Shown piece by piece: positions 7,985 to 55,455 of a stretch of 64,000 bases of DNA. The notes under the pieces are model-generated. The model saw nothing but the letters and a program-made list of their open reading frames with translations, searched no databases and was not told the DNA's origin. The stretch spans positions 3,244,501 through 3,308,500 of the forward strand of contig NZ_CP027806.1 in assembly GCF_003353065.1 (NCBI RefSeq). The letters run 5' to 3'. Source of the DNA: Cyclonatronum proteinivorum. Its GTDB lineage: Bacteria > Bacteroidota > Rhodothermia > Balneolales > Cyclonatronaceae. The position numbers were made by a program, and so were the translations under genes. The stretch's first letter is position 1. Each line of letters begins with the position of its first letter.

Positions 7985-10078
7985 TTATTTAACCAGCATC
8001 ATGGTACGCTGTGTTGTGAAGCTGCCGGACTGCAGACGGTACAAATAGACACCGGATGACAGGCGGCTTGCATCAAACTGTACGGTGTGTACACCAGCGC
8101 TAAAGGTTCCGTTCGCAAGCGTAGCTACGCGCTGACCCAAAACATTGAACACGTCAAGACGGATATCAGCTGATTCCGGCAGGGTGAAGTTGATGTTGGT
8201 TGTTGGGTTGAACGGGTTCGGGTAGTTCTGGCTGAGCGTGATGGCACGCGGCAGCTCGCTTCCGGGCTGAACACTTGTAGGTGTTGTCGGGAAGTAAACT
8301 GTACCGGAATACAGGTGATTGTTGGACTCCGGCTGTGTTTCGCGGGTGAGCGCAAACGTTTGTCCCCAGTCGAGCTGCGGGAAGTCTGAAAAGAGAACCG
8401 GAGCATCTGCTTCGCCCAGACCGTAATCCGGTGGCGCCGGGAAGTCGAGGTCTTCTGCTTTCCAGGTAATCTCATCAAAGGTAAAGCCACCAGCCGGCCA
8501 AAGGGTTACTTCGCCGATTACGGCTTCAGGCTCAATGTAACGGTAGTAGCGACGTCCGGCGTCAAATCCGCCGCCATTGATAACGTACGGGCCATCTTCC
8601 GGGCCGTAAGCAATACGGAAACCAAAGTGATTTTCCGTTGGAAGTGCGATTTCGAGCTCGAGCTCATACATCATCGTGTCACCGACACGGTTAAAGCGGA
8701 GACGATCACGCTGATCGGGATCATCGAGTCCAGGCTGTCCGTCACCTACAGAAAGATCTTGTGTGAGTCCGAAAATAGGTGTTTCAACCACAAGGAAGAC
8801 TTCATCATTAGCCGGGTCAAACGGATCTTCGTGCTCAAGGGCAGGAGCCATGTCGAGCGGGAAGGTTACGGTGTACGTGTCAGAACCGGTTCCTTCCACT
8901 GTAATCAGGGCCTGCTCAGGCAAGCTGTTGAAGAAGCCGATGTCACCACCGAAATCACCGGTAGCCACCTGGAAAGGCGTGCTGCCGAATTCGTAGAGGC
9001 GGTCACCGCCGCCGAATGCGCCTGGCTCTTCCCATCCGTTACCTGAAATCAGGTTAGGAATGAAGTTCGGGCTGTCTTCGTCGAAACGGCTTTCATCCCA
9101 GATAATGAAGTATTTGTAGGGAATCTGCTGACCTACTTCGCGGGTAAGAACAAAAGAACTTCTCCAAATGTCTTCGCCTTCATCGTAGGTCATGGATGTT
9201 GCTGAATCCCAGTTGTTGAATGCACCGGGAACCGCTACGCGATCGCCAATTCCGCGGTTGAAGTAACCGAGCTGCTCAAGGAGGCTTACGTTGGCACGGA
9301 ATTCAACTTCCGCTTCAATCACTTCGCCGCTTGGCGGTACTTCATTGTTGAAATTGGTCCAGCGGATAGTAGAGTCGGCAGCCGGAACAAAGAATGTTTT
9401 ATCCGCGCCGTCTTCCCACTGCACACCATCGGGCGTGTCGATAACGTACTTGTAAAGTACCTGACCGGTTTCCTGATTGTAGTTGCCGCGTACACCAACT
9501 ATGTGATCCGGATTTTCGGGATCATACTGTGATGTAGCAACCCGCGCCCCAACGTTCACCCGGAAGTGAACAGCGGTGAACCCTTCATCAGAAGGCTCGA
9601 AAGGAGCCGTACGACCTGCGTCTGTTCCGGCGAAGAACTCAATCGGAAGCACAATATCGCTGTCCGCGTCTTCAGGAACTTCAAACATGTAGTTTCCGCC
9701 GCCAACAGGATCAAATTCCCATCCGTCATTGAATCCAATGCCGTTTTCAGTGTCGTTTCCTGCCCAGAATTTATAGGCAAGCTGATCGCCCGGGGCCATC
9801 AGCACGTTAAATTCCCAGTAATCACCGGCGATGTTCTGCCCCTGAACAGAGCTTGAACCCCAGTTGATATTCTGGCCAAAGTAGTCTTCGTTGCTAAATT
9901 CAGAACCATTTACAGCACCACGAATTTGAAGCACCCCGTCTGCGCTGAGTGTATCAGCAACGGTTGAGGTGTTCACCCGGAAGGTGACCGTAATCGGGTC
10001 GTCTTCAGCTACTGCCTGCATGCTTACGCCAAAAACAAACAGCGCCAGCATCATCAGCATTTTGGTAAAGGTTTTCAT
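7985..10078 (-). CDS. Secreted multi-domain protein with starch-binding-like modules and T9SS sorting domain
   Basis: 697 residues: signal peptide (1-24), then at least three repeated beta-sandwich modules. Each contains phrases typical of CBM20/E-set-like folds, for example FRVN...IRGAVNGSEF, VRGNYNQE, and VAVPGAFNNWDS...IPYKYFI...GGGDRLYEF (about 250-370). The C-terminus carries a T9SS type A sorting domain (NYPNPFNPTT ... FNVLGQRVATL ... MMLVK). No catalytic domain is seen, so I infer a surface glucan-binding protein helping the neighbouring amylase. The start is supported by AAGAGGT six bases upstream of the ATG. It is separated from lacI by a strong terminator, so it is a distinct transcription unit. 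The glucan-binding role is inference from module pattern and neighbourhood. Confidence 0.8.
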   Translation of the reverse strand: MKTFTKMLMMLALFVFGVSMQAVAEDDPITVTFRVNTSTVADTLSADGVLQIRGAVNGSEFSNEDYFGQNINWGSSSVQGQNIAGDYWEFNVLMAPGDQLAYKFWAGNDTENGIGFNDGWEFDPVGGGNYMFEVPEDADSDIVLPIEFFAGTDAGRTAPFEPSDEGFTAVHFRVNVGARVATSQYDPENPDHIVGVRGNYNQETGQVLYKYVIDTPDGVQWEDGADKTFFVPAADSTIRWTNFNNEVPPSGEVIEAEVEFRANVSLLEQLGYFNRGIGDRVAVPGAFNNWDSATSMTYDEGEDIWRSSFVLTREVGQQIPYKYFIIWDESRFDEDSPNFIPNLISGNGWEEPGAFGGGDRLYEFGSTPFQVATGDFGGDIGFFNSLPEQALITVEGTGSDTYTVTFPLDMAPALEHEDPFDPANDEVFLVVETPIFGLTQDLSVGDGQPGLDDPDQRDRLRFNRVGDTMMYELELEIALPTENHFGFRIAYGPEDGPYVINGGGFDAGRRYYRYIEPEAVIGEVTLWPAGGFTFDEITWKAEDLDFPAPPDYGLGEADAPVLFSDFPQLDWGQTFALTRETQPESNNHLYSGTVYFPTTPTSVQPGSELPRAITLSQNYPNPFNPTTNINFTLPESADIRLDVFNVLGQRVATLANGTFSAGVHTVQFDASRLSSGVYLYRLQSGSFTTQRTMMLVK

Positions 10079-10200: not shown

Positions 10201-11274
10201 TTAAAATTTGACTTTAAGTGAGAATCGGTTGGTTACCCCGAGTATTTTGTGGCTTTGCAGCGCGTAACCAATGTTCAGGCCCAGCCCGCCGCTCAGCTCG
10301 TAGTTCACCCAGCCGCCGGCTGCGAATTCAAACATCCGGTCGTCGAGCAACAGGTCCGGAAGACCCGCCTGCACAGCAAACAGCTCGTCAAAAAACGCCG
10401 CCTCTATACCCAGATTAACGCTCTGCGTGTTGTTGCTCGGGCTCACGCCGTCGGCCATCAGCGTTACGCGTACCGTCTCGGTTTTAACCCCGTCCCACGC
10501 CAGGCCCACCTGCAGCAACAGCGGCAGATCGAAGTCTTTAGTCTCCAGACGCGCAGGCACGTTCGGGTTGTTGCCCGCTGAGCCACGGTCAATATCCACC
10601 GGCACGTTCAGGTCTTTGCCCGTGATGTTGAGCTTCTGACCGAAGTTGGCAAAGCGTACCCCAAAGCGGATGCCGTCGAAGGGCGTCACGTAGGTCGTTC
10701 CCAGATCGAAGGCAAAACCCCCGCTGCTGGAATTCCAAATCTGCTCGTGCACATACTTGACCGTTGCGCCGATGGCGAAGTCACGCATGAGGAACTGTGA
10801 GTAGGTCAGTCCGGCCGCGTAGGAGTAGGCGCCAAAGAAACGGCCCGTGCCGTCCTGCTCCTGCATGGTGGTTTCTTCCATGTCGTCCATGGTCAGCGCG
10901 CTCACGCTCAGCCCTACCGTACCTGCGCCGGGTATCGGCAGTGCGATACCCACAAAGTTGTGACGAAGGTCGGCAAACCATTCCGAATGCTCAATGTGCA
11001 CCTGACGCTCGCGGACCATCGCCAGCGCTCCGGGGTTCCAGTACATGGCCGTCGCGTCGTTGACCGAAGCCGTGATCGCGTTGCCCACGCCCGTTGCCCG
11101 CGTGCCGACCGGAATGTTCAGAAACTCGGCCGCAGAGGTCCCCGATTTCGAGATCTCCTGACCCTGCACCTGCTGCGGGGCTGACAGCCAGCCCGCGCTA
11201 ATCATCACCGTGAATACCAGCACAGCCGGTAACAGGCGCTTCATGCTCAATTTCGTGTTCATTTGATTTCTCAT
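10201..11274 (-). CDS. PorV/PorQ-family outer-membrane protein, second operon copy
   Basis: 357 residues with a signal peptide and the PorV/UPF0164 pattern: GTSAAEFLNIPVGTRATGVG followed by NDATAMYWNPGALA, then alternating hydrophobic/polar strands of a beta-barrel ending in an aromatic-terminated strand (FSLKVKF). PorV is the outer-membrane shuttle of type IX secretion: it collects cargo with C-terminal sorting domains from the translocon and hands it to the surface attachment complex. The gene begins 12 bases after cargo B, whose stop overlaps the Shine-Dalgarno-like AGGGGGC, suggesting translational coupling. The protein is residue-for-residue identical to the one encoded at 14143-15216, while the DNA differs at about 16 positions. 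It is the last gene of the six-gene operon; I see no clear terminator after it. Confidence 0.88.
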   Translation of the reverse strand: MRNQMNTKLSMKRLLPAVLVFTVMISAGWLSAPQQVQGQEISKSGTSAAEFLNIPVGTRATGVGNAITASVNDATAMYWNPGALAMVRERQVHIEHSEWFADLRHNFVGIALPIPGAGTVGLSVSALTMDDMEETTMQEQDGTGRFFGAYSYAAGLTYSQFLMRDFAIGATVKYVHEQIWNSSSGGFAFDLGTTYVTPFDGIRFGVRFANFGQKLNITGKDLNVPVDIDRGSAGNNPNVPARLETKDFDLPLLLQVGLAWDGVKTETVRVTLMADGVSPSNNTQSVNLGIEAAFFDELFAVQAGLPDLLLDDRMFEFAAGGWVNYELSGGLGLNIGYALQSHKILGVTNRFSLKVKF

Positions 11275-11370
11275 TGGTTTAGCCCCCTATTTGATTACCG
11301 CGAATTTGCCAACCTTCTCTCCTATACCGGGCGCATCCACATGGTAGATGTACACCCCATAGGAAAGCTC
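10201..11370 (-). repeat. Direct repeat, copy 2 (PorV gene plus 3' end of the upstream cargo gene)
   Basis: This 1170-bp segment aligns without gaps to 14143-15312 (constant offset 3942). I count roughly 19 mismatches by eye, about 98% identity. The match ends abruptly inside the cargo C-terminal domain, then resumes patchily further into that domain (near 11445-11510 against 15390-15455). Confidence 0.85.
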
Positions 11371-14127
11371 GCGGTTTTCACTGGTGATCATATCCCAGAC
11401 GTAACGGCTTTCCGTAGCCGGGTTATCGACACGCAGGGTTTGGAGGAGCCGGCCTGATACGCTGAAGATGCGGATCGTAGCCTGCTGCGGCAGGTTGGTG
11501 AAGTGCAGCTGACGGCCGCCCGTGCGGGGTTCAGCTACATGCGTTACCAGATACGGATTCGGAACCACACGAATGAGGGAGAGCGGATCTTCCACTTCGC
11601 TCAGGTCGACATCAGGGAAGTTGGAGCCGTCAATGGTGAAGGTGAATTCATCGGCCGATGTAAGCGGCTTCACGGTAAAGAAGCGAAGCTCATCGCCTTC
11701 AGACGGATCAACTGTGAGGCCAAACGGGCTTGTTGCGGTACGGGCAAGCATGGATACCCGCCAGGTATCCCGAAGCTCACCGTCGTCGCGGACATCTTCC
11801 AGAATGTAGAGGATGTCGCTTCTTGACTGATTGTTGTTGTCAAAGGCAGCCCTGAAGCGGCGGAAATCCTCGGTCGCCTGCCAGGTCTGTCCCTGATTAC
11901 TGCTTCGGAGTCGGGTTGAGTTGGCGCCAACGGCTACGAGTGAAGACGTACCGCCTGCTATGCTCCCGATACCAAACAGCTCTACACCGGTACCGCTGTC
12001 AAGCGCTTCCCAGGTCTGACCGCCATCGGCGGTAAAGATGATGGCACCGCCGCGTCCCACAGACCAGCCGGTTGCGTTATCCGCAAAGGTGATGTCATTG
12101 AGCTGCTGATTGGTTGGGGTATCAAGTTCTGTCCAGGTTTCGCCGGCGTCTTCCGTTTTAAAGATACGGCCGCCTGTTCCTGCAACGTAGCCAGTTTGTT
12201 CATCGGTGAAATCCATCCCAAAAAACTCCAGGATTGGTCCAACCGGAAGAGGTTCCCAGTTAGTACCGCCATCCGTTGTTTTTAGGACACGGGAGTTGCC
12301 TGCGCCAAATATCAGGCCCGAAACATAGCCGGTCTGCGCGTCGGTGAAGACTACGTTGTTAAAGCGGTTCAGTACGCCCGAATCCTGTGTAACCCATGAA
12401 TCTCCGCCGTTTGTGGTTGCAATAATAACACCACCGTCGCCTACCGCCCAGCCGTTTTGCTCGTCCACGAAGTAAATGTCGCGAAGAATGGAGGTAATCC
12501 CCGTTTCCATGGGCGTCCATGTTTGACCGCCATCGGTCGTGCGGGTTACGGTTCCTTCGCGACCGGCTGCCCAGCCGTTTTGCGCGTCCACGAAATGCGC
12601 TGCTTTCAGACGCACACTTACACCGCTTTCCACGTTTGTCCAGATTTCGCCACCGTCTTCGGAGCGCTGTATCAGACCTGCGGCACCGAAAATCAGAATG
12701 TTATCGCTGCTGAGGTACACAACATCACGCAGATCCCGCGGAAGCTGCGGGTTGGTGAAGAACGCGTAATCTACTTCCTGACCGGTTACCGTGTTGGTAA
12801 TGATTACGTTAGTGCGCTCGGCAGGGATGTTTGTATTACCAATGGTGAAGGGGAGCGATTCACGCACCGGCTCATCAAAGAATTCAAAGCGGTAGTCTGA
12901 GGGCGTCGGGTTTCTGCCGGATACCCCGATTACAAAGTTGTGAATATTTGATTCTTGTTCGGTGATCCACTCCGTTCGCTCTTCATCTACTGCTACACGG
13001 TTGGGAATATCATCAATGAAAAACAACAGCCCCTCTTTAACCGGCAGCTCCACACCCTGAAAATTCTCCAGGCGGTCGAAAAGGACTTCGCCGGTTGTTG
13101 TATTGGTGAGGGAGACGCTCTTGGTAACGAGATCCACAACATTGCCGGGCCGCTCAATGAGGGTATCGGTAAATGCTATGCTGTAGTTGTGACCGCCGCG
13201 GAGGGCGTCGGGATCAATAACCTGCACATCAATGGTACCGGAACCGGAGCCGCTAATTTGCTGAACCATAGGATCCTGCGGCGCAACAAAGCCTGCGGCG
13301 CCACGCTGCGGTGTTACCGCAACGACGTTTACGCCCGTAATCACAGTTCCGTCCGGCAAAATCTCAATGTCCAAACCTGAGTCAAGTGGCGGGATGGTAT
13401 AGATAGAGTTAGGAAGCGGTATAATCGGGACGTCATCTTCATCAAACTCAATCGGCAGCTCAAACTCGGGCAGGGCGTCGCCGTGTGTGAAGGATACAAC
13501 GGCGTAGTAGTACGTACGTCCGTTGGTGAGACCGCTGTCTTCCCAGATACGGCGGATGCCGGTATCGGAACCCATCCAGATGCGCTGCCCGCCTACTGAA
13601 GCCGGATGGTATCCGGTGATGTCATTCTGCAGATCAAATACATCTTCAAAAGCCAGACGCTGTCTGTTGCCCTGATTGTCGGTAATGCGGAGTGCGTCGG
13701 TGAACTCAGGATCCGTTGACCTGAAGACCATGTAGCCCTGAAAGTTATTCGGGTTTGCAAACACATCCTCAAAAACCCCCGTAGCAACCGGGCGCTGATA
13801 CACCACGTAGCCGTCGAAGAATGGATCGTAGTGGAATTCCGCGGCGTCATCCCAGTAGAGCAACACGCTGCCGTCGCCGACAACTGCGCTGAGCTGCGGC
13901 TTGGGCGGACGTATCGGCTGAGGTCCGTTGTCATCATCCTGCGGAAAAATAAAGATTCCGCTGCTCTGCTGCTGTGCCTGAAGCTGACTTTGCGCGCTGA
14001 ACCCCGCCCCGATAAGGGCGGTGACGGCAAAGCTCATCAGCATCGTAACAAAAAATTTCATAGAAAACCTTGGGTGACCGGATTGTATCCGTTCGGAGAG
14101 GGTCTTTTGATTGGTTGTAGATTTCAT
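11287..14127 (-). CDS. T9SS-secreted surface protein with a Ycf48-like beta-propeller (cargo B)
   Basis: 946 residues. A hydrophobic signal segment lies at about 23-50 after an unusually long 22-residue n-region. The ATG at 14127 is nevertheless favoured because GGGAGGG lies 8 bases upstream. Next comes a fibronectin-like module (about 75-220) and a long region homologous to cargo A. From about 475 to 775 there are six or so Ycf48/BNR-type propeller repeats (TTDGGQTWTPMETG, FVDEQNGWAVGDGG). The end is a sorting domain (VVPNPY ... FSVSGRLLQTL ... GEKVGKFAVIK) almost identical to that of cargo A. The function is unknown; propellers of this type usually bind proteins or scaffold assemblies. It sits between two PorV genes in the operon. 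Confidence 0.8.
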   Translation of the reverse strand: MKSTTNQKTLSERIQSGHPRFSMKFFVTMLMSFAVTALIGAGFSAQSQLQAQQQSSGIFIFPQDDDNGPQPIRPPKPQLSAVVGDGSVLLYWDDAAEFHYDPFFDGYVVYQRPVATGVFEDVFANPNNFQGYMVFRSTDPEFTDALRITDNQGNRQRLAFEDVFDLQNDITGYHPASVGGQRIWMGSDTGIRRIWEDSGLTNGRTYYYAVVSFTHGDALPEFELPIEFDEDDVPIIPLPNSIYTIPPLDSGLDIEILPDGTVITGVNVVAVTPQRGAAGFVAPQDPMVQQISGSGSGTIDVQVIDPDALRGGHNYSIAFTDTLIERPGNVVDLVTKSVSLTNTTTGEVLFDRLENFQGVELPVKEGLLFFIDDIPNRVAVDEERTEWITEQESNIHNFVIGVSGRNPTPSDYRFEFFDEPVRESLPFTIGNTNIPAERTNVIITNTVTGQEVDYAFFTNPQLPRDLRDVVYLSSDNILIFGAAGLIQRSEDGGEIWTNVESGVSVRLKAAHFVDAQNGWAAGREGTVTRTTDGGQTWTPMETGITSILRDIYFVDEQNGWAVGDGGVIIATTNGGDSWVTQDSGVLNRFNNVVFTDAQTGYVSGLIFGAGNSRVLKTTDGGTNWEPLPVGPILEFFGMDFTDEQTGYVAGTGGRIFKTEDAGETWTELDTPTNQQLNDITFADNATGWSVGRGGAIIFTADGGQTWEALDSGTGVELFGIGSIAGGTSSLVAVGANSTRLRSSNQGQTWQATEDFRRFRAAFDNNNQSRSDILYILEDVRDDGELRDTWRVSMLARTATSPFGLTVDPSEGDELRFFTVKPLTSADEFTFTIDGSNFPDVDLSEVEDPLSLIRVVPNPYLVTHVAEPRTGGRQLHFTNLPQQATIRIFSVSGRLLQTLRVDNPATESRYVWDMITSENRELSYGVYIYHVDAPGIGEKVGKFAVIK

Positions 14128-14142
14128 CGTTTGTACCCTCCC

Positions 14143-15216
14143 TTAAAATTTGACTTTAAGTGAGAATCGGTTGGTTACCCCGAGTATTTTGTGGCTTTGC
14201 AGCGCGTAACCGATGTTCAGGCCCAGCCCGCCGCTCAGCTCATAGTTCACCCAGCCGCCGGCTGCGAATTCAAACATCCGGTCGTCCAGCAACAGGTCCG
14301 GAAGACCCGCCTGCACGGCAAACAGCTCGTCAAAAAACGCCGCCTCTATGCCCAGATTCACGCTCTGCGTGTTATTGCTCGGGCTCACGCCGTCGGCCAT
14401 CAGCGTTACTCGTACCGTCTCGGTTTTAACCCCGTCCCACGCCAGGCCCACCTGCAGCAACAGCGGCAGATCGAAGTCTTTAGTCTCCAGACGCGCAGGC
14501 ACGTTCGGGTTGTTGCCCGCTGAGCCACGGTCAATATCCACCGGCACGTTCAGGTCTTTGCCCGTGATGTTGAGCTTCTGACCGAAGTTGGCAAAACGTA
14601 CCCCAAAGCGGATGCCGTCGAAGGGCGTCACGTAGGTCGTTCCCAGGTCGAAGGCAAAACCCCCGCTGCTGGAATTCCAAATCTGCTCGTGCACATACTT
14701 GACCGTTGCGCCGATGGCGAAGTCACGCATGAGGAACTGTGAGTAGGTCAGTCCGGCCGCGTAGGAGTAGGCGCCAAAGAAACGGCCCGTGCCGTCCTGC
14801 TCCTGCATGGTGGTTTCTTCCATGTCGTCCATGGTCAGCGCGCTCACGCTCAGCCCTACCGTACCTGCGCCGGGTATCGGCAGTGCGATACCCACAAAGT
14901 TGTGACGAAGGTCGGCAAACCATTCCGAGTGCTCGATGTGCACCTGACGCTCGCGGACCATCGCCAGCGCTCCGGGGTTCCAGTACATGGCCGTCGCGTC
15001 GTTGACCGATGCCGTAATCGCGTTGCCCACGCCCGTTGCGCGCGTGCCCACCGGAATGTTCAGAAACTCGGCCGCAGAGGTCCCCGATTTCGAGATCTCC
15101 TGACCCTGCACCTGCTGCGGGGCTGACAGCCAGCCCGCGCTAATCATCACCGTGAATACCAGCACAGCCGGTAACAGGCGCTTCATGCTCAATTTCGTGT
15201 TCATTTGATTTCTCAT
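14143..15216 (-). CDS. PorV/PorQ-family outer-membrane protein, first operon copy
   Basis: Identical in all 357 residues to the protein encoded at 10201-11274, with the same signal peptide, GTRATGVGNAITASVNDAT motif and terminal barrel strand. It begins 12 bases after the stop of cargo A, and the stop codon overlaps the AGGGGGC ribosome-binding sequence. Cargo B starts 15 bases beyond its own stop. The arrangement cargo A, PorV, cargo B, PorV suggests that each cargo gene is accompanied by its own shuttle gene. Silent differences between the copies are scattered rather than clustered. Full function would require the rest of the T9SS machinery, which is not in this window. Confidence 0.88.
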   Translation of the reverse strand: MRNQMNTKLSMKRLLPAVLVFTVMISAGWLSAPQQVQGQEISKSGTSAAEFLNIPVGTRATGVGNAITASVNDATAMYWNPGALAMVRERQVHIEHSEWFADLRHNFVGIALPIPGAGTVGLSVSALTMDDMEETTMQEQDGTGRFFGAYSYAAGLTYSQFLMRDFAIGATVKYVHEQIWNSSSGGFAFDLGTTYVTPFDGIRFGVRFANFGQKLNITGKDLNVPVDIDRGSAGNNPNVPARLETKDFDLPLLLQVGLAWDGVKTETVRVTLMADGVSPSNNTQSVNLGIEAAFFDELFAVQAGLPDLLLDDRMFEFAAGGWVNYELSGGLGLNIGYALQSHKILGVTNRFSLKVKF

Positions 15217-15312
15217 TGATTTAGCCCCCTATTTGATTACCGCGAATTTGCCAACCTTCTCTCCTATGCCGGGCGCATCCACATGGTAGATGTACACCCC
15301 GTAGGAAAGCTC
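14143..15312 (-). repeat. Direct repeat, copy 1 (PorV gene plus 3' end of the upstream cargo gene)
   Basis: Partner of 10201-11370, same orientation, 3942 bases apart. Because the repeat includes the end of the cargo reading frame, recombination between the two copies would cleanly remove cargo B and one PorV gene while leaving cargo A with an intact sorting domain. Confidence 0.85.
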
Positions 15313-18300
15313 AAGATTATCTTTGGTGAGCATATCCCAGATATAGCGGCCATTATCGATTGAATTATTTACGTTTAGCGTCTGCACGAGGCGGCCTGAT
15401 ACGCTGAAGATGCGGATCGTAGCCTGCTGCGGCAGGTTGGTAAAGTGAAGCTGACGCACGCGTGTCTGATCAGCGCCTGCCGGACGAGGTTCTCCAAGAT
15501 GCGTACCGATGTACGGGTTGGGTACTACCCGGATATTATCGAGCTGGTTTTTGGCCAGTTCGGGATCTACATCAGGCAGGTGTGAGGCGTCGATGGTAAA
15601 TTCAAAAACATCTTCACTGGTAAACTCTCCGCTTTGATTCAGCGTGATGATATCGCCCGGCTGTGCTGCGAAGGGCTGATTCGCTTCGAAAGGCTCGAGT
15701 ACGAGTTCCCAGGCAAGCTCTTTTTCACCGGTTTCCGGATTGGTCTCGCGGATGTAGATGAGGTCGCTGTCGGTACGGCGCTGAGCGTTGTTATAAACAG
15801 CGGCGAAACCTGCATGACCGCGCTGTGCGTCGCTAATTGACGGATGCGGCAGGTAGCCAAACTCAACCGGTTCATTGGTGCGGGTGTTGATGATGCGGAA
15901 ATTCACATCGCGGGCAGGTGCCTGCATGGTGAGTGACCCCCGCTGTACCTGAACGGGTACGGAGCTGCTCTTACTGATCGCCGCATTCCGGCGGGTATCA
16001 AAGAACTCAATCCGGTAGTTTTCCATGCTGCCGTTGTGACGAATCGCGCGGATGGTCGCGGGGGTATCCGAACCGGTGCGGCTGCTCCAGCTTTGCAGAC
16101 GCAGCCTTGTGTTTGGACGCTCACCGGCAACTTGCGATGGCGCGAAGGCATCGTTCACCACGATCATTTTCACGCCGTCAAAAACAGGCAGGTCTTCACC
16201 GTTAAACTCATCTCGCTCTTCAAATATGATGCGGTCGTTGGTTACATCCGTTACCGTGAAACCGGTTGTCTGCCGCCAGGTCTGCCCGTTAGCCGTCACT
16301 TCTTCGTCCTGGAATTCGATGCGGTAGGTTGTGTTCACCTGAAGCTGACGCGGATCGAAAATACTGGTGATAATCGTACCGGTCGCACTTCCGGTACCGC
16401 CTACGCGGTTCACCGAAATTTCGGCGGGTCCCACATATCCGGCGGCAGGTCCGCCGGGTACGACAAGCTGCACATTCTGACCTGCGGTCAGCGAGCCGTC
16501 AGGATTAATACTGATGTTAACCGGTGATTCCGAAGGCGCAATATCCGCAATAGCGGCACCGCTGTTGTAGGCCGTTACGACGTAGTAGTACTGACGACCG
16601 TTGATGACATCCGTATCCACGAAATGACGCTGCAGGCCGGTATCGCTGCCGAGGAAAAACTCCAGGCCGTTGATATCAATCGGATGATTTCCGGTAATGC
16701 CGTTGGCGAGGTCAAACTGCGCGATGGGCTGCAGGAACTGAATGTTACCCCGGCCATCCGTAATGCGGCGGCTGTCGGCCAGCGCAGGATCGGTGGAGCG
16801 GTACACGCGGTATCCTTCGAAGTTACGCGGATTAACGCCAAGGCGGTCGAGGAAGCGGTCGAATACGTCTTCAGCTTCATCATCCCAGTATAGTACGACG
16901 TGTCCGTCGCCCGGAACTGCGCGCAGAAGCGGCGGCGGCGGGGCAATCGCAAACTGATAGTTGGCATCGAAAGCGCGGAAGGCGTTTTCAAGCTGCTGCG
17001 TAACCAGCTCTTCATCTGCGGTATTGGTGGTGGTTCCGGTTTGCGCTACAGAAACAGCGATAGCGAAACGCTGTACGGAACCTGCACGGAGCGGGAAGAA
17101 GCTGGAGGTAATCATCTGATCGGTATCCTGCGTAGCCGGAGGCGCGGGCGGGAACAAACCCGGTACCATAAAGCGGCGCCAGATGAGTCCGTCGTTGAAT
17201 TCCAGAGAACCCGCAGGAATCGAAGTTGCAGAGGTAATACCGATGGCGTCGGTTTCGCGCACATCTGTTTTATCAATATTCGGCTCACCAGGGAAGGGTG
17301 TGAACGCGCCTGAACTTGGGAATCCGTCCCCTTCACCGCGGGCACCGCTGCCTTCTACGCCGTCGATACCGACATCATCACGCAGGGTCCAGTCCTGATT
17401 GTTGTCAAAGAAGTCTTCTCTCGATTCATCAATCATAGGCGCTGCCGTGAACTGATTGAGGAAAAAGCGATCGAAATGAGATTCCGGGAAAACCGGATTA
17501 TTGATTCGGCTGTAAAGGTTTCTGAGCGCTTCCTGATAATCGTTAATGAAATCTGCAAATTCGGAATCATTGTTCATGCGGCGCTCAATCCACTGATCGG
17601 GAATGATCATCCCGCGCTGAATAAAGAGGCTGTCGGTCGGCACCCATTCGCCGTTGACCTGTGACCAGCCAACCGGATCAATGCCCGGGTTGCCGGCATG
17701 GCCTTCGTAGTAGCCATCCCACAAATAATTGATGAAGCGGACGGCACGGGTAACCGGCTGCGGCTGTCCCGGCAGGAAGCGTGTTAGGGTGAGGTGATTG
17801 GGCTGATTCTCATCAATCAGACCGTTGAGATCATCATCGATAAGGTTTCGGTGCCGCGCCTGCAAGGTGTCTTCCCGAACGGTCATTCCGCCGGCAGGCA
17901 GGAGGACTTCCCGGGCCACATCGCGTGCGTCGTAGGTTATCATCGTTACATCACCGGCTTCTGCGGGCGGATAGCGGAACAGGCGACGGTTGCCGTCCTG
18001 ATCCATAAGTACGATGGGATCACCGGGTTGTAGCTGACGCTCGGCAAACTGCGCTTCCGTAAACTGCGGCACGACTTCGTTGGCAAGCACATCGCGTGAA
18101 GAAATGAAGCCACCGCCATCAACGGTCAACAGGCTGTAGAGATCAACGTTACCCGGATCAAAGAGCGGACCACCACCGAGGTAGAAGTCGCTGTCGCCGT
18201 CGTTGTCGATTCCGTCAACGTCGTTGCCGGGTGTTTCCAGGAAGCGAATCGCAGCTACCCCGATTGCGGTACCGTCAAACTCCGGAGGGGATTGCGTGGG

Positions 18301-19206
18301 CATGATATCGGTGTAGAAAGCAATCGAGCGCTCCTGGTCGAAGAACGGGAGGTCATTTTCGGGGGTCCCTACCCAGTCAGCCGTCCAGAGCATAAAGGAT
18401 ACTTTATCGTAATCGAAGCGGCTGTCGTTGCGGATTTCGAAGATATTGAAATGCACGCTACTGATAAGGTTCTGCGTCCAGGCCAGAATACGGGTGTCCA
18501 TAATGAGGCCAAGACCGCCGCGGCTCGGATCTTCGGGATCCGGCAGCCAGTTACCGCCCGCTGATAGGCGGGTGTACTGATCATCACCGGAACGGTAGTA
18601 AAACTCCTGATCGGCATTGAAGATGTCTTTGCCGAAGAAGCCGTTCCACTGATTCGGCCATCCGGGATCAGAGGGGTCGTCCAGCTTGTCAGGCCAGAAT
18701 GCAGGCCAGGTATTGCCGCGGGCTGAGCCGGGCCCCTGATCGCTTCGTGCGATTTCTTCAGAGTCAGGGTTAAAGTATCCGGTAACCGGGTTTTTCGCCC
18801 AGCTGTCCCCCGTTTGAGGATTGGTGCGGTAGTTGGGCGCTACGACAACCTGTGTAGGGTCGCCGGTTTGCTGATCTATGACTTCAGCACCGGTAAAAAT
18901 CGACACGAAGTACAGGTAGCGCCGGTTGGTGTTTTTAGGAAACTCAAAGTAGAGTTCATCGACGTTTGCGTCGGTGGTCCGGCCTGCGAAGCCAAAGTTA
19001 TGGTAGGTCGCACGCAGGTTGTTGGCATCCAGGATAGACTTGCGCCGCTCTTCAAAAGAGGACCGCTCATCACTGGGAATGTTGCCGGTCTGAGTCTGTG
19101 CCAGCGCACCCCCAGCCGTAACCAAACCCGCCAGTAACAGCGCCGTCATCAGAATTAAGGATTGCTTAAGAGACATAATCCGTAGTGTTTTGGAAATCTT
19201 TTTCAT
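15229..19206 (-). CDS. Large T9SS-secreted surface protein (cargo A)
   Basis: 1325 residues with a signal peptide ending near Gln37. The long N-terminal part (about 40-780) matches no family I recognise; it is rich in Asp, Asn and Pro and has an Asp-rich calcium-loop-like stretch (DVDGIDNDGDSDFYLGG, near 345). Around 800-930 lies a fibronectin-like module (DGHVVLYWDDEAED ... GRQYYYVVTAYNSG) that is clearly related to the N-terminal module of cargo B. The C-terminus (VVPNPY ... IFSVSGRLVQTL ... GEKVGKFAVIK) is a T9SS sorting-type domain. The ATG overlaps the TonB-receptor stop (TAATG), so translation is probably coupled to the receptor. This gene and its receptor may form one functional unit on the cell surface. 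Molecular function unknown. Confidence 0.8.
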   Translation of the reverse strand: MKKISKTLRIMSLKQSLILMTALLLAGLVTAGGALAQTQTGNIPSDERSSFEERRKSILDANNLRATYHNFGFAGRTTDANVDELYFEFPKNTNRRYLYFVSIFTGAEVIDQQTGDPTQVVVAPNYRTNPQTGDSWAKNPVTGYFNPDSEEIARSDQGPGSARGNTWPAFWPDKLDDPSDPGWPNQWNGFFGKDIFNADQEFYYRSGDDQYTRLSAGGNWLPDPEDPSRGGLGLIMDTRILAWTQNLISSVHFNIFEIRNDSRFDYDKVSFMLWTADWVGTPENDLPFFDQERSIAFYTDIMPTQSPPEFDGTAIGVAAIRFLETPGNDVDGIDNDGDSDFYLGGGPLFDPGNVDLYSLLTVDGGGFISSRDVLANEVVPQFTEAQFAERQLQPGDPIVLMDQDGNRRLFRYPPAEAGDVTMITYDARDVAREVLLPAGGMTVREDTLQARHRNLIDDDLNGLIDENQPNHLTLTRFLPGQPQPVTRAVRFINYLWDGYYEGHAGNPGIDPVGWSQVNGEWVPTDSLFIQRGMIIPDQWIERRMNNDSEFADFINDYQEALRNLYSRINNPVFPESHFDRFFLNQFTAAPMIDESREDFFDNNQDWTLRDDVGIDGVEGSGARGEGDGFPSSGAFTPFPGEPNIDKTDVRETDAIGITSATSIPAGSLEFNDGLIWRRFMVPGLFPPAPPATQDTDQMITSSFFPLRAGSVQRFAIAVSVAQTGTTTNTADEELVTQQLENAFRAFDANYQFAIAPPPPLLRAVPGDGHVVLYWDDEAEDVFDRFLDRLGVNPRNFEGYRVYRSTDPALADSRRITDGRGNIQFLQPIAQFDLANGITGNHPIDINGLEFFLGSDTGLQRHFVDTDVINGRQYYYVVTAYNSGAAIADIAPSESPVNISINPDGSLTAGQNVQLVVPGGPAAGYVGPAEISVNRVGGTGSATGTIITSIFDPRQLQVNTTYRIEFQDEEVTANGQTWRQTTGFTVTDVTNDRIIFEERDEFNGEDLPVFDGVKMIVVNDAFAPSQVAGERPNTRLRLQSWSSRTGSDTPATIRAIRHNGSMENYRIEFFDTRRNAAISKSSSVPVQVQRGSLTMQAPARDVNFRIINTRTNEPVEFGYLPHPSISDAQRGHAGFAAVYNNAQRRTDSDLIYIRETNPETGEKELAWELVLEPFEANQPFAAQPGDIITLNQSGEFTSEDVFEFTIDASHLPDVDPELAKNQLDNIRVVPNPYIGTHLGEPRPAGADQTRVRQLHFTNLPQQATIRIFSVSGRLVQTLNVNNSIDNGRYIWDMLTKDNLELSYGVYIYHVDAPGIGEKVGKFAVIK

Positions 19207-22082
19207 TAGAATTGCATCGAGAAGCCGAACTGAACTCTTCGGGGTTCAGCGAATCGTGACGGGTCGGCATACCATCCCGGATCAGCATCTGCAAGCGGGT
19301 TAAGCGGCAGGTCCGGACTTCCGGTATCATTAAATACAGAGCTGGGGTTTCGGGCATCAAAGATGTTGAAGATGTTAAAAAACAAGCCCATCGTGTAGCC
19401 GCTGACTTCAATATTCTTATACATATTCAGGTCAACGGTAAAGGTTGCCGGCATGCGCAGGCTGTTGGTAATGATGTCGCCGGTTGAGGTAATCCCAACG
19501 CTGCGCGGTACGGAAGCCGACGGAGTGTAGGGCAGACCGCTGCTGAAGCGTTGCACGATATTAAAGCCCCAGGTATCCTGCGCATAAAAGAAAGATGAGT
19601 TCAGCACGTGCGTACGGTCCCAGTTGGCGGGTGTAAGGAAGCGTGCCAGGTTGCTGCCGGTTGTATCACCGGAGGCAACAGCGGCAAAAAACTCGGCTGC
19701 GGGATCTGAGTTGGAATCTTCCGCAATAGAAAAGGTGTAATCGACCCCAAAGCTCACGCGACGGGTTACGCGCTGATTGATGGCAGCGGTGATACCGCGG
19801 ATGTTGGCATAGTCGCGGTTAATCCAGGTTCCGTAGCGAACACTTGGGATGGCCGTCGGCTGTATCGGCCCGGAAGACACGTAGTCGCGCTTATCTTCAT
19901 AAAAAATACTCAGATCGAGTGCGGTTCCGGTGAAGATCTCCTGTTGAAGACCGAGCTCATATTTCACACTTTGCTCAGGACGCAGGTCGGGGTTTCCGAA
20001 CGGTCCCTGTGCACCGGATATGTTTGCCAGAATCAGGTTTGAGCCGTTATACAGGTTTGAGTAATTGGGCACCTGAAAGAAGTAGCCATAGGAGAAGTGA
20101 ATCACCCCGCGGGCTGAAATCGGATAGGCAATCCCCAGACGCGGACTCAGCTGATATTTGGGGCTTGCTTCAGACCAAAAGCTTGCGTCGCGCTCGTCAA
20201 AACGCTGCGTCAGGCGAGGACGGTCGGAAGCGGGGATACGGCCGTTGGGCACGAAGTAATCAAACCGAAGACCTGCATTGATGATAAGATTTTCGTACTC
20301 AATGCGATCCTGAATGTAAGCGCTGAAGGTAACCGGTTTGCGGGTCCACACTTCGTGTCCGATGGTGTTTTCAAGGGGAATGCCGAGTTCCGGCAGAAAT
20401 TCCCGGTCGAGTACCCTGTCCGGGAAGGGCTCAAGGTCTGCACCGCCTGTAATGGGCACAAGGCCGTAATTTCTGTAATTGAGCACATCGGCCTGAACGT
20501 CAATACCTGCCTTGATAAAGTGCTGATCATTCACCTGATGGTTGTACTCGATCTTCCCGATAAAGGTCGTGGTGTTTCGGTTGAAGAATCCGTTGTTGGT
20601 TCCGAACCTGGCAAAGCGGCCGTCACGCGGCTGAAATGCCTGCGGGAAATCACCCGTGCGCTCAAAATTCAAATGCCGCGGATCGTAGGGATCACCAAAA
20701 AGATTGCTTTCAAACGCATTGTAGCGCATAGCAAAGTTCGACGTAAAGAACATGTTAGCCGAAGGCGTGAAGGTCGTGCGCAGGTTCACAAAGTAGTTGT
20801 TCCGCTCGGTCTGTGTGTTGTTCTGCGCTACGAGCCGTCCGCCGTGATTGTAGCCCTGACTAAACTCCTGACTCCAGTTTCCGATGAGGTTGAACCGCAG
20901 CATGTTGGTGGCGTTATACTGCACATTGCCCTGAAAACTGACGGTTTCGAAGGGGTGCATAGAAACCATGGTGCTGTCGCGGAAGCCTTCATCGCGGTAG
21001 CGGATAAACTCGCCGTCGTTCTCTACGATGTTAATCCAGGGGTCATCCCCATTGATGAAATGTCCGTAGCGGTTTACCGGATTGCTGACCGGTACTTCAT
21101 TATACCCGCGCTCCCAGGTCAGATTACCGGCTTCATCCTGCAGCGGCAGAATGGGACCCTGCGGAGAAAAAGCGTTGTAGCCGTATAGCCAGCCTTCGTT
21201 ACGGAAGCGGCGGCCGCTTAAAAAGAAGGTTACCTTATCCCGAACAATCGGCCCGGAAATACTGCCTTCCACATTGTACTGATGTACGGGGTCAATTTCA
21301 CTGAAAGTGCCGGGTGCGCCGGGAAACAGGCCCGAGCGGGTAGTCGCATATTCACCGCCCCAAATGCGCAGGTTACCGCGCCAGTCGTTGGTTCCTGAGC
21401 GGGTTGCAATATTAATGATACCAGAAGTTGCCTGCCCGTACTCTGCGTTGAAGGCACCGGAAATAACCTGCAGCTCTTCAATCGCCTGATTTTCAACCCG
21501 CAAGCCAGAGCCACGATCAAAGTCATCCGAAACACGCACGCCATCCACAATATAGGCCACTTCTGACGCGCGACCGCCGCGGATGTGAATACTTCCGCCG
21601 GGTCCGACCGTCACACCGGCCTGCAGCGATACGACCTCACCCACGTCCTGCACGGGCAGCCGTTCCAGATCCTGCCGGCTGACGCGCGATTCAGTACTCG
21701 TAAGGTCGCGGATCACCACATCGCGCTGCGCCCGAACAACGATTTCTTCCCCTTCGAGCACAGACTCCGAGAGCTGCATGTCAACGACGGTGTTGAGATC
21801 GGTTCTGACCAGCACATCTTCTACAATTTGTGTCGTGTAGCCGATGTAGCGAAACTCCAGGGTATAGGTACCCGGCCGCACATTTAATATTCGAAAGTTG
21901 CCGTCGAAGTCCGTAGTCGTACCCTGGGTTGTCCCCTGAATAATAACCTGAGCTCCGATAATGGGTTCCCCATCCCTCGCATCCGTAACGTTACCGGTTA
22001 TCCGACCGGCCTGCGCATGCAGACTTTCGGCTGCAAACAGGAATACGAAAACGGCGAACAGTAATTTCGTAGCGTTATTCAT
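19206..22082 (-). CDS. TonB-dependent outer-membrane receptor
   Basis: 958 residues: signal peptide (1-23), a carboxypeptidase-regulatory-like beta-sandwich (about 26-105, GRITGNVTDARDGEPIIGAQV), a plug domain (about 115-230, including SIHIRGGRASEVAYIVDGVR and GQATSGIINIATRSG), and a 22-strand-type barrel ending in Phe (VQFGFSMQF). Such receptors import ligands across the outer membrane using energy from TonB-ExbBD. The domain layout is that of FCB-group receptors, but there is no SusD partner nearby, so it is not a standard Sus pair. It follows the PPIase lipoprotein gene by nine bases, and its stop overlaps the start of cargo A. The ligand is unknown; a link to cargo A is inferred from coupling. 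Confidence 0.9.
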   Translation of the reverse strand: MNNATKLLFAVFVFLFAAESLHAQAGRITGNVTDARDGEPIIGAQVIIQGTTQGTTTDFDGNFRILNVRPGTYTLEFRYIGYTTQIVEDVLVRTDLNTVVDMQLSESVLEGEEIVVRAQRDVVIRDLTSTESRVSRQDLERLPVQDVGEVVSLQAGVTVGPGGSIHIRGGRASEVAYIVDGVRVSDDFDRGSGLRVENQAIEELQVISGAFNAEYGQATSGIINIATRSGTNDWRGNLRIWGGEYATTRSGLFPGAPGTFSEIDPVHQYNVEGSISGPIVRDKVTFFLSGRRFRNEGWLYGYNAFSPQGPILPLQDEAGNLTWERGYNEVPVSNPVNRYGHFINGDDPWINIVENDGEFIRYRDEGFRDSTMVSMHPFETVSFQGNVQYNATNMLRFNLIGNWSQEFSQGYNHGGRLVAQNNTQTERNNYFVNLRTTFTPSANMFFTSNFAMRYNAFESNLFGDPYDPRHLNFERTGDFPQAFQPRDGRFARFGTNNGFFNRNTTTFIGKIEYNHQVNDQHFIKAGIDVQADVLNYRNYGLVPITGGADLEPFPDRVLDREFLPELGIPLENTIGHEVWTRKPVTFSAYIQDRIEYENLIINAGLRFDYFVPNGRIPASDRPRLTQRFDERDASFWSEASPKYQLSPRLGIAYPISARGVIHFSYGYFFQVPNYSNLYNGSNLILANISGAQGPFGNPDLRPEQSVKYELGLQQEIFTGTALDLSIFYEDKRDYVSSGPIQPTAIPSVRYGTWINRDYANIRGITAAINQRVTRRVSFGVDYTFSIAEDSNSDPAAEFFAAVASGDTTGSNLARFLTPANWDRTHVLNSSFFYAQDTWGFNIVQRFSSGLPYTPSASVPRSVGITSTGDIITNSLRMPATFTVDLNMYKNIEVSGYTMGLFFNIFNIFDARNPSSVFNDTGSPDLPLNPLADADPGWYADPSRFAEPRRVQFGFSMQF

Positions 22083-22091
22083 ATTGTTGAT

Positions 22092-23825
22092 TTATAATTG
22101 TATTGGTATCGATAATAATCGGTCGGTGTACACTTTGGCGCCGAAACGCTCCCGGGCTTCACCGATTTTCCGGATTTTCAGTTGCTCCTTAGCCTCCGAG
22201 CGAAGCGCGCGCTCCACCATTGGGATGGCTTCCTCAAATGTCAGCTGCCGGGGTTCAATCCTGCCATGACATTTAAAAATGTGAAAGCGGGAGCCCGTAA
22301 TCTGAAACGGTCCCGCATATTCACCCGGCTGAATGTTGACCAATGAAGGCGACATCATGCCAAACTGTTGTATGGGAATAAAGCCAAGACGCCCCATATT
22401 TTCGCGCCCTGCCGGATCAGCCGTAAACTGACGCAGCACATCATTAAACTCACGACCGGCTTCCAAAGCCGCCCACGCCTGATCAGCCGCTTCCTCGCTT
22501 GTTACAACTATTTCCGCCATATCAAGCTGAAGCGGTTCCACATATTGGGCCGGATTCCGGTGAAACTCTGCGTAAATTTCATCCTCGCCAACCTGCACCT
22601 GTGCTTCCAGATATTCATCAAACATCTGATTCAGATAGTTGTAGAAGGTCTCATCCGCTGTGCGCTGCACGTAACGCGCGTTAAAATTGGGATGATTACG
22701 CACCTCCGCAATCGCCATCGCGCGGTAGGCCATAGCCTTAACCTGTCCTGTAAAATCATGCACGTTACGGGCCTGCCGGCGCTGACTAAAAGTCGTAAAG
22801 AAAGCTTCCCGCAGAAAATCGTCCGTCGTAAACACAAAATCCCCGTAGCTTATCAGCGTCTGACCGGCAACTTCGGGGGAAAGCCGGACTTCAAGACGTA
22901 CAAGCTCGGGGTTAAACTCGAGATAGGCATCCGGGTCGTTCCGTACATCATCCCAAAGCTTCTGCATCAGCGCCGGATCGTAGTCAAAAGCATCCATGGT
23001 GCTGCGCAGGTGATTGCGCACGGCAAGTTCCGCTTGCTGATCGCGGGCAATAGCGGCCAGCTCGTTTCTGCGCTGTGCGAACTGCGTTTCTGTGATGACG
23101 GGCGTCTCAACAATATCCGTCACCTTTATAATGGAAAAGCCCCGGCTTGTCTGCACCGGCGCTGAGATGTCACCAACGGCCATTCGGAAGGCCTGATCTT
23201 CGAAGGAGATATCCATATCGTCCAGGGTGAAAAACCCGAGATCCCCGCCATTGCGGGCCAGCTCAGGGTTCTGAAACACCTGCGCTGCAAGTGCTTCGAA
23301 ATCATGCCCCTGTTCGAGCAAGGCAAAAAGGGAATCGGCTTCATGCCGGTTGCTTGCAAATAAATGGGAAGCCCGTACGCTTGTGTTGGCCCGGTAAAAC
23401 AGCTCACGAAGATCGTTTTCACTGATGGTGAGCTCGTCAATAATAAAACGCCGCTCAAACTCTTCCATCAGCGCTTTGCGCTCAATCATCTCTCGGGTAT
23501 GGTTTACGTCGGGCTCGTTGTGCCACCCCTGATCCATCGCGTAGGTCACGATTACATAGCGGTTCAGGCGCTGATTCAGCACCGCTTCCATCACATCCGG
23601 ACTCAGGTTCATGGCATAGCCGGCACGGGCATTAAAGCGCTGCAGCTCATTCAGAAAATGGGTGCGCGTGATGTCGTATGATCCCACAGCCGCAAGCACC
23701 TGTTCACCTTCATCAACGGGCTCATCCGTAGAACAGGAGCTAAGGCCTGCCAAAAGAATGAGCAAGGAAGTGATGAACAAAAATTTGTAGATCAAAAAAG
23801 GATATCGTATTTGGCTTTGGGCCAT
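22092..23825 (-). CDS. PpiC/SurA-type peptidyl-prolyl isomerase lipoprotein
   Basis: 577 residues with a lipoprotein signal (lipobox LAGLSS before Cys31), an N-terminal helical chaperone part resembling SurA (about 45-140), a parvulin domain at about 148-238 (RASHLFASNR ... GGDLGFFTLDDM ... PVQTSRGFSIIKV) and a second parvulin-like region at about 425-530 (GRLGFIPIQQFG ... GPFQITGSRFHIFK). Proteins of this type help fold outer-membrane barrels and secreted proteins in the periplasm. As first gene of an operon encoding a barrel receptor, two big secreted proteins and two PorV barrels, it is probably a dedicated folding factor for them. The mature N-terminus should be lipid-anchored. Confidence 0.88.
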   Translation of the reverse strand: MAQSQIRYPFLIYKFLFITSLLILLAGLSSCSTDEPVDEGEQVLAAVGSYDITRTHFLNELQRFNARAGYAMNLSPDVMEAVLNQRLNRYVIVTYAMDQGWHNEPDVNHTREMIERKALMEEFERRFIIDELTISENDLRELFYRANTSVRASHLFASNRHEADSLFALLEQGHDFEALAAQVFQNPELARNGGDLGFFTLDDMDISFEDQAFRMAVGDISAPVQTSRGFSIIKVTDIVETPVITETQFAQRRNELAAIARDQQAELAVRNHLRSTMDAFDYDPALMQKLWDDVRNDPDAYLEFNPELVRLEVRLSPEVAGQTLISYGDFVFTTDDFLREAFFTTFSQRRQARNVHDFTGQVKAMAYRAMAIAEVRNHPNFNARYVQRTADETFYNYLNQMFDEYLEAQVQVGEDEIYAEFHRNPAQYVEPLQLDMAEIVVTSEEAADQAWAALEAGREFNDVLRQFTADPAGRENMGRLGFIPIQQFGMMSPSLVNIQPGEYAGPFQITGSRFHIFKCHGRIEPRQLTFEEAIPMVERALRSEAKEQLKIRKIGEARERFGAKVYTDRLLSIPIQL

Positions 23826-55353: not shown

Positions 55354-55455
55354 GTTGGAGGGCTTGATCGAAGGAAAAATTTGAGGGTTAGGAATCGTTA
55401 AAATCAAAAGAAATATGACCTGTTTAACCGCTGTCAACAGCTTAAATATGAAAGT

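Follow-up and report, generated by a model that had tools for sequence, protein, structure and literature searches.

We analysed a window of 64,000 nucleotides from Cyclonatronum proteinivorum (positions 3,244,501-3,308,500 of the closed 4.29 Mb contig NZ_CP027806.1), in which six open reading frames (ORFs), all on the minus strand, form a compact module. From 23825 down to 10201 they encode a peptidyl-prolyl isomerase (PPIase), a TonB-dependent receptor (TBDR), a large protein termed cargo A, a PorV-like barrel, a second large protein termed cargo B and a second PorV-like barrel. Both cargos are candidate substrates of the type IX secretion system (T9SS) and end in a C-terminal domain (CTD). 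The order and tight packing described in the initial annotation are confirmed: base 19206 is common to the receptor stop and the cargo A start, and the remaining gaps measure 9, 12, 15 and 12 nt. Promoter and terminator scans of the locus performed no better than shuffled sequence and gave no support for an operon. The features of the module are as follows.

22092-23825, minus strand: parvulin-type PPIase, probable lipoprotein (LSSC); Pfam Rotamase_3, 83.5 bits
19206-22082, minus strand: TBDR with CarboxypepD_reg, plug and barrel; Pfam PF00593 (99 bits), PF07715, PF13715
15229-19206, minus strand: cargo A, 1325 aa, proposed to be exported by the T9SS and to bind glycan at the surface as a partner of the receptor; family kept across phyla, supersandwich in the AlphaFold2 (AF2) model
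15232-15531, minus strand: CTD of cargo A, VVPNPY...GKFAVIK subtype; below the TIGR04183 cut-off, 159.6 bits on A8, our model of this CTD subtype
14143-15216, minus strand: PorV/PorQ-family barrel, copy 1; NF033709, 162.2 bits; module clade support 0.993
11287-14127, minus strand: cargo B, 946 aa, with an Fn3-like region, a Ycf48-type β-propeller and a CTD of the same subtype; PSII_BNR, 93.7 bits
11848-12771, minus strand: β-propeller region of cargo B (approximate); repeating strand pattern, model residues 453-760
11290-11589, minus strand: CTD of cargo B; 79% identity with cargo A over the final 80 aa, A8 139.7 bits
10201-11274, minus strand: PorV/PorQ-family barrel, copy 2, protein identical to copy 1; 16 DNA differences, all silent

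The gene types first proposed hold for the parvulin-type PPIase and for the plug-plus-barrel receptor, while the barrels are PorV/PorQ-family paralogs and not PorV. Both exceed the cut-off of the family model NF033709 (162.2 bits against 90) and fall below those of the PorV model NF033710 (47.9 against 250) and the PorQ model NF033711 (93.2 against 220). Likewise, the receptor scores 111.3 bits on the SusC model TIGR04056, under its cut-off of 368.25, and is placed outside the SusC family. The lipobox of the PPIase was recognised by eye; a strict lipobox pattern occurs in 21 of 53 homologs and is too narrow to be informative.

The module recurs in distant lineages. An alignment scan of named genomes with cargo A found relatives in Balneolia, Ignavibacteria, KSB1, Calditrichota, Neomarinimicrobiota and Delongbacteria, and one further relative on a contig labelled Spirochaetes. 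The cargo A family is present in 60 of 148 genomes of an even sample of the window's phylum. The four gene types, whose joint conservation the initial annotation had proposed to check, are found together in relatives, and most sufficiently long loci across six named phyla or classes keep the order PPIase, TBDR, cargo A and PorV-family barrel with short gaps. In most of the phyla sampled, module loci have the PPIase gene upstream of the receptor. Because this order recurs across phyla, it is not a chance arrangement. The module is ancient. Cargo B, among the loci read, is confined to those of Balneolia type, and in one (L056) it stands without a second barrel alongside; in the window's family, this second, β-propeller cargo and the second barrel gene were added. 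In three loci (L160, L162 and L119) the barrel gene lies between the receptor and cargo A, and in two of these the PPIase comes last.

Three genes that adjoin the module, omitted from the initial annotation, point to glycan uptake.

7985-10078, minus strand: CBM20-containing T9SS type A protein in a SusE/F-like position; CBM_20 24.3 bits, Por_Secre_tail 40.9 bits
6758-7816, minus strand: LacI-family regulator; PF00356 and Peripla_BP_3
3851-6736, minus strand: GH13/CBM48 α-amylase-family enzyme with a canonical T9SS CTD, in a SusG-like position; PF00128 76.4 bits, Por_Secre_tail 41.3 bits

Relatives of the CBM20 protein adjoin the module in many loci. More broadly, 65 genes downstream of the module yielded 9 GH13, 9 CBM20, 7 GH53, 6 CBM48 and 4 LacI matches, and 48 genes upstream yielded 8 GH13, 7 LacI and 3 GalT matches. 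In a uniform search, glycan-gene matches were found for 115 of 635 module-locus ORFs and for 2 of 232 ORFs in control stretches taken from the contig starts of the same genomes (Fisher p 1.7e-14), a ratio that is approximate, as the module ORFs include core genes and the queries were drawn from module loci. With a TonB receptor adjoined by a CBM20 protein, a LacI regulator and a GH13 enzyme, and with this enrichment across phyla, the locus is in functional terms a polysaccharide utilization locus. The arrangement is clearest in L102, which reads cyclomaltodextrinase, PPIase, TBDR, cargo A, PorV-family barrel, CBM20 protein and GH97. These correspond to SusA, SusC, SusE/F and SusB, with cargo A where SusD would be, so that L102 fits a Sus locus except for SusD. 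Ignavibacteria such as L071 carry GH53 in place of these enzymes, which suggests galactan as the substrate there.

SusCD is the textbook Bacteroidota route for polysaccharide uptake. SusD (PF07980) gave no match in 6 of the 15 genomes searched, and most of those six carry several triads of TBDR, CTD-bearing protein and PorV-family barrel. The genome of the window has seven PF07980 matches, none of them in the window; no SusD adjoins the receptor.

The structure of cargo A was predicted with AF2 for residues 38-1130 (predicted local distance difference test 85.7, predicted template modelling score 0.80). When Foldseek candidates were aligned with VIA-align, cargo A matched glucodextranase with Z 18.6 (3.0 Å over 236 residues); similar scores were obtained for GH94, GH116 and other carbohydrate-active enzymes, followed by GalM-type mutarotases at Z 10-13. 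These enzymes and the mutarotases have the supersandwich in common, which argues for a carbohydrate-type domain in cargo A. Most likely, the predicted protein contains a galactose-mutarotase-like domain of this type, built from two sequence stretches with a long insert. SusD was not among the structural matches listed, which does not exclude SusD. The initial suggestion that cargo A captures a ligand for the receptor is in keeping with the predicted fold and with the glycan-locus setting. Around residues 330-340 lies a near-invariant acidic motif, DGIDNDGD, that resembles a calcium-binding loop. A stand-alone ORF (634 aa; G000:C1:3551498-3552271) is 47% identical to cargo A residues 54-326.

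For cargo B, the model matched Ycf48 (5ojr, E 7.5e-14) and a seven-bladed propeller (7bie, TMt 0.86), and PorZ was also among the matches. As modelled, cargo B is a Ycf48-like seven-bladed propeller followed by a tail. In a strand count of the model, the tail region (residues 853-944) has seven strands.

The tails of both cargos form a distinct CTD subtype. On the T9SS type A CTD model TIGR04183, cargos A and B score 16.7 and 20.7 bits, and the cargos of L071 and L102 gave no match in the same search. The scores of cargos A and B both lie below the type A cut-off of 23 bits; the SprA translocon that any T9SS cargo needs is encoded in the genome. Neither TIGR04131 nor PorP/SprF, the marks of type B, appeared among the NCBIfam matches, and the window barrels belong to the PorV/PorQ family. 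In the window, the A and B tails are 79% identical over the last 80 residues and 35% identical over the preceding 100. Across all comparisons of any A with any B, the corresponding ranges are 64-88% and 22-35%, and the C-terminal GKFAVIK end is highly conserved. In G006, the B tail is 88% identical to the A tail of the same genome but only 70% identical to the B tail of the window.

This subtype is closely paired with PorV-family barrels. The A8 model was searched against the genome of the window and over nine genomes, at thresholds of 60 and 100 bits. The own genome has four strong matches; besides cargos A and B these comprise a third cargo (2.78 Mb) and a fourth (3.74 Mb). A barrel gene lies directly 3' of three of them, and the fourth, on the same strand as a TBDR, is about 7 kb upstream of one. 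The next-ranking match is PorU, beside the canonical PorV. In the nine genomes, a PorV-family gene was directly downstream of 70 of the 79 matches of at least 60 bits and of 38 of the 41 matches of at least 100 bits. At 38 loci of strong matches, from eight genomes, a TBDR was directly upstream in 32 and a PorV-family gene directly downstream in 33; the cargo A N-terminal domain was present in 37. Just 7 of these 38 have a PPIase before the receptor, so the window represents a single subtype within a broader set of triads. The members of the triad co-vary over all genomes (r 0.75-0.85, with 0 of 2000 permutations as high); inside individual genomes the co-variation is less distinct and mixed.

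Further arrangements of these gene types were noted. At about 3.73 Mb of the own genome (L021:9086-18918), an operon-like run contains a CTD-subtype protein, a T9SS protein, a TBDR and a PorV-family gene, together with a 505-aa lipoprotein without a Pfam or NCBIfam match and a 444-aa NHL-like lipoprotein. At about 2.245 Mb (L024:8517-12127), two PorV-family genes that differ from each other stand in tandem behind the gene for a 513-aa propeller protein with a T9SS-like tail. The Ignavibacteriales genome of L082 (G015) has about 40 PorV-family genes, around half of them beside a CTD-subtype protein.

The initial annotation had suggested that the module is self-contained for export, with a PorV for each cargo. 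Neither point is supported. The module contains no translocon, and SprA is encoded elsewhere in every module-bearing genome tested, exceeding its cut-off in 15 of 15 genomes (1541.6 bits in the own genome). Over 357 aa the two barrel proteins show no difference, and the 16 sites at which their genes differ are all silent (dN 0, dS 0.065). Barrels specific to A or to B are ruled out by this identity, and both cargos therefore share one barrel type. The barrels are also distinct from housekeeping porV, as shown by the barrel tree and by a separate canonical PorV (C1:1093246-1094286, 285.9 bits) that adjoins PorU (955 bits), the arrangement that had been proposed as a check. In the tree, TBDR-module barrels group apart from canonical PorV, with support of 0.96-0.99 for the PPIase-type module groups; about ten PorV/PorQ-family members were counted in the own genome.

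The DNA repeat of the barrel genes extends into the final ~80 codons of both cargos. An assembly artefact is ruled out by the 16 silent differences within a closed contig, and the contigs of relatives also break at the same repeat. In G002, G004, G005, G006, G007 and G009, contigs stop 16-73 nt past the cargo A stop, and cargo B is found apart, on short contigs of 3.0-3.4 kb that carry parts of the barrel gene at one end or at both; both sides are visible in G005. Of the 22 loci of Balneolia type, grouped by record titles and the barrel tree, 12 have a contig end no more than 300 nt from cargo A, compared with 1 of 44 others (p 1.4e-6). Breaks of this kind are expected when short reads are assembled across a near-identical repeat. 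Between these species, orthologs of cargo B share only 50-80% identity, whereas the barrels agree within the genome, which suggests that the barrel copies probably evolve in concert, with gene conversion as the simplest route. The tail identities of the cargos given above show the same trend.

Taken together, we favor the interpretation, with a probability of roughly 0.6, that the window holds a Sus-like uptake locus for α-glucans such as starch, without SusD, in which a T9SS-exported glycan-binding protein on a PorQ-like barrel replaces SusD. Cargo A would cross the outer membrane through the T9SS of the genome (SprA), guided by its distinct CTD subtype, and its CTD would dock on the PorV/PorQ-family barrel encoded directly downstream. 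This barrel may act mainly as a stoichiometric membrane-embedded anchor, comparable to PorQ holding PorZ, and not as a recycled shuttle. At the surface, the supersandwich of cargo A would bind glycan and pass it to the neighbouring TonB receptor, while the CBM20 protein and the GH13 enzyme would bind and cut the polymer outside the cell. LacI would regulate the locus, and the PPIase may assist the folding of the large surface parts. The cargo B propeller may be a second surface subunit on the second, identical barrel copy, with one barrel per cargo. Precedents for such pairs include PorZ-PorQ and PorU-PorV at the surface (PMC5562754) and the SprF/PorP barrels that hold type B cargos (PMC9143113, PMC12618676), as SprF holds SprB (PMC9143113); in type B pairs, the production of cargo and of shuttle is believed to be matched in quantity (PMC12618676).

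Several observations weigh against the Sus-like interpretation. Balneolia genomes also hold SusD proteins. Foldseek returned no PDB match for cargo A at E <= 0.001, and the fold match is one of domain type, not of binding. Of the two triad-rich genomes, one shows weak co-variation between its cargo A and PorV proteins. In addition, one sister cassette lies near an M20 peptidase (L020) and another is followed by peptidoglycan-recognition and serine-hydrolase genes (L027), so the ligands may not always be glycans. These two cassettes favor the possible, if unlikely, alternative that the receptor cassette imports ligands generally (peptides, cell-wall pieces or metals) and that glycan neighbours mark one subtype only. 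The window's own subtype has consistent glycan neighbours over many phyla, and a general import role would be compatible with Sus-like uptake at the window locus.

We consider it rather doubtful that the barrels are cargo-specific shuttles only, which would carry their cargo from SprA to PorU for CTD cleavage and linkage to anionic lipopolysaccharide and then be recycled, the receptor being linked by co-regulation. PorV does act as a shuttle in P. gingivalis (PMC5562754), and all studied type A CTDs use PorV (PMC12618676). However, a shuttle that is recycled would have no need of a separate gene copy for each cargo, and a single canonical PorV serves dozens of cargos here; a one-to-one anchor would account better for the second, identical barrel gene that follows cargo B. 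The strongly conserved GKFAVIK end also speaks against a shuttle alone, although a shuttle role is still compatible with all these points.

It is improbable that cargo A is a surface glycan enzyme rather than a capture protein. Its best structural matches are indeed supersandwich-containing enzymes (GH15, GH94, GH116 and PL26), but the alignments span 236-276 residues and for several (GH15, GH94) cover the enzyme's N-terminal part. Folds of GalM type are matched too, cargo A has no hydrolase or lyase match in Pfam, and separate enzymes adjoin the module. Least probable by far is that the PPIase, the FadL-type barrel and the surface protein make up an outer-membrane assembly machine like the canopy of the Bacteroidota BAM complex, in which PPIase folds and surface proteins accompany a FadL-family barrel in F. 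johnsoniae and B. thetaiotaomicron (PMC12611786, PMC12578637), given the many divergent module copies per genome, their glycan neighbours, the nearly constant TBDR and a BamA elsewhere in the window. Apart from the module, the window encodes a 1595-aa protein with many PKD domains (45263-50050) and a BamA-like Omp85 protein (52873-55437).

With respect to known systems, the module shares with SusCD a TonB receptor with CarboxypepD_reg, an adjoining gene for a surface partner, a CBM protein, GH13/GH97 enzymes and a regulator. In contrast to SusCD, it has no SusD, the partner is instead a large protein that has a supersandwich and a T9SS CTD and comes with a PorV-family barrel, and its receptor stays under the SusC cut-off. 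The module would function like SusCD, yet it falls outside both the SusC and the SusD family. It also resembles the PorZ-PorQ and PorU-PorV pairs of the T9SS attachment complex, in which a CTD surface protein sits on a FadL-type PorV/PorQ barrel; cargo B is PorZ-like in combining a propeller with a CTD, and the module barrel scores nearer PorQ than PorV. Unlike these housekeeping complexes, the module has numerous paralogs in each genome, which lie in operons alongside TonB receptor and glycan genes. With type B CTD/SprF-PorP pairs it shares a dedicated outer-membrane barrel gene directly 3' of the cargo gene (70/79), whereas CTD type and barrel family differ.

Our literature search for the triad as a system, in a library lacking most subscription papers, returned one listing alone, the alginate locus of Rhodothermus marinus, where tonB, a T9SS-type gene and a PorV/PorQ gene lie side by side (PMC9530828). 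These genes, named tonB-hypA-hypB in a figure legend of that paper, parallel the module in placing a TBDR, a T9SS CTD protein and a PorV/PorQ gene amid alginate enzymes; the substrate is another and the cargo is shorter (2181 nt). On the R. marinus plasmid pRMAR01 (L027:9104-18778), a TBDR-cargo-PorV triad lies between CRISPR-Cas operons.

Overall, the interpretation first attached to this locus is partly supported. A wider proposition, for which we see the chances as evenly balanced, is that the triad of TonB receptor, T9SS-exported supersandwich protein and dedicated PorQ-like anchor does the job of SusCD in several phyla around Bacteroidota. Many paralogous triads per genome would then serve different ligands, and a separate T9SS signal subtype would serve these barrels only. 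In the window's family, duplication of the anchor together with a second cargo would have given each cargo a barrel, and gene conversion would keep the two copies identical.

Should the triad prove equivalent to SusCD, it would explain how glycans are captured in Ignavibacteria, Neomarinimicrobiota and their relatives, which are common in oceans, sediments and soils. It would also give a function to a large set of genes now annotated as 'PorV/PorQ family' or 'hypothetical'. Finally, it would mean that type A-like T9SS signals can have dedicated barrels, contrary to the view that one PorV serves all type A CTDs.

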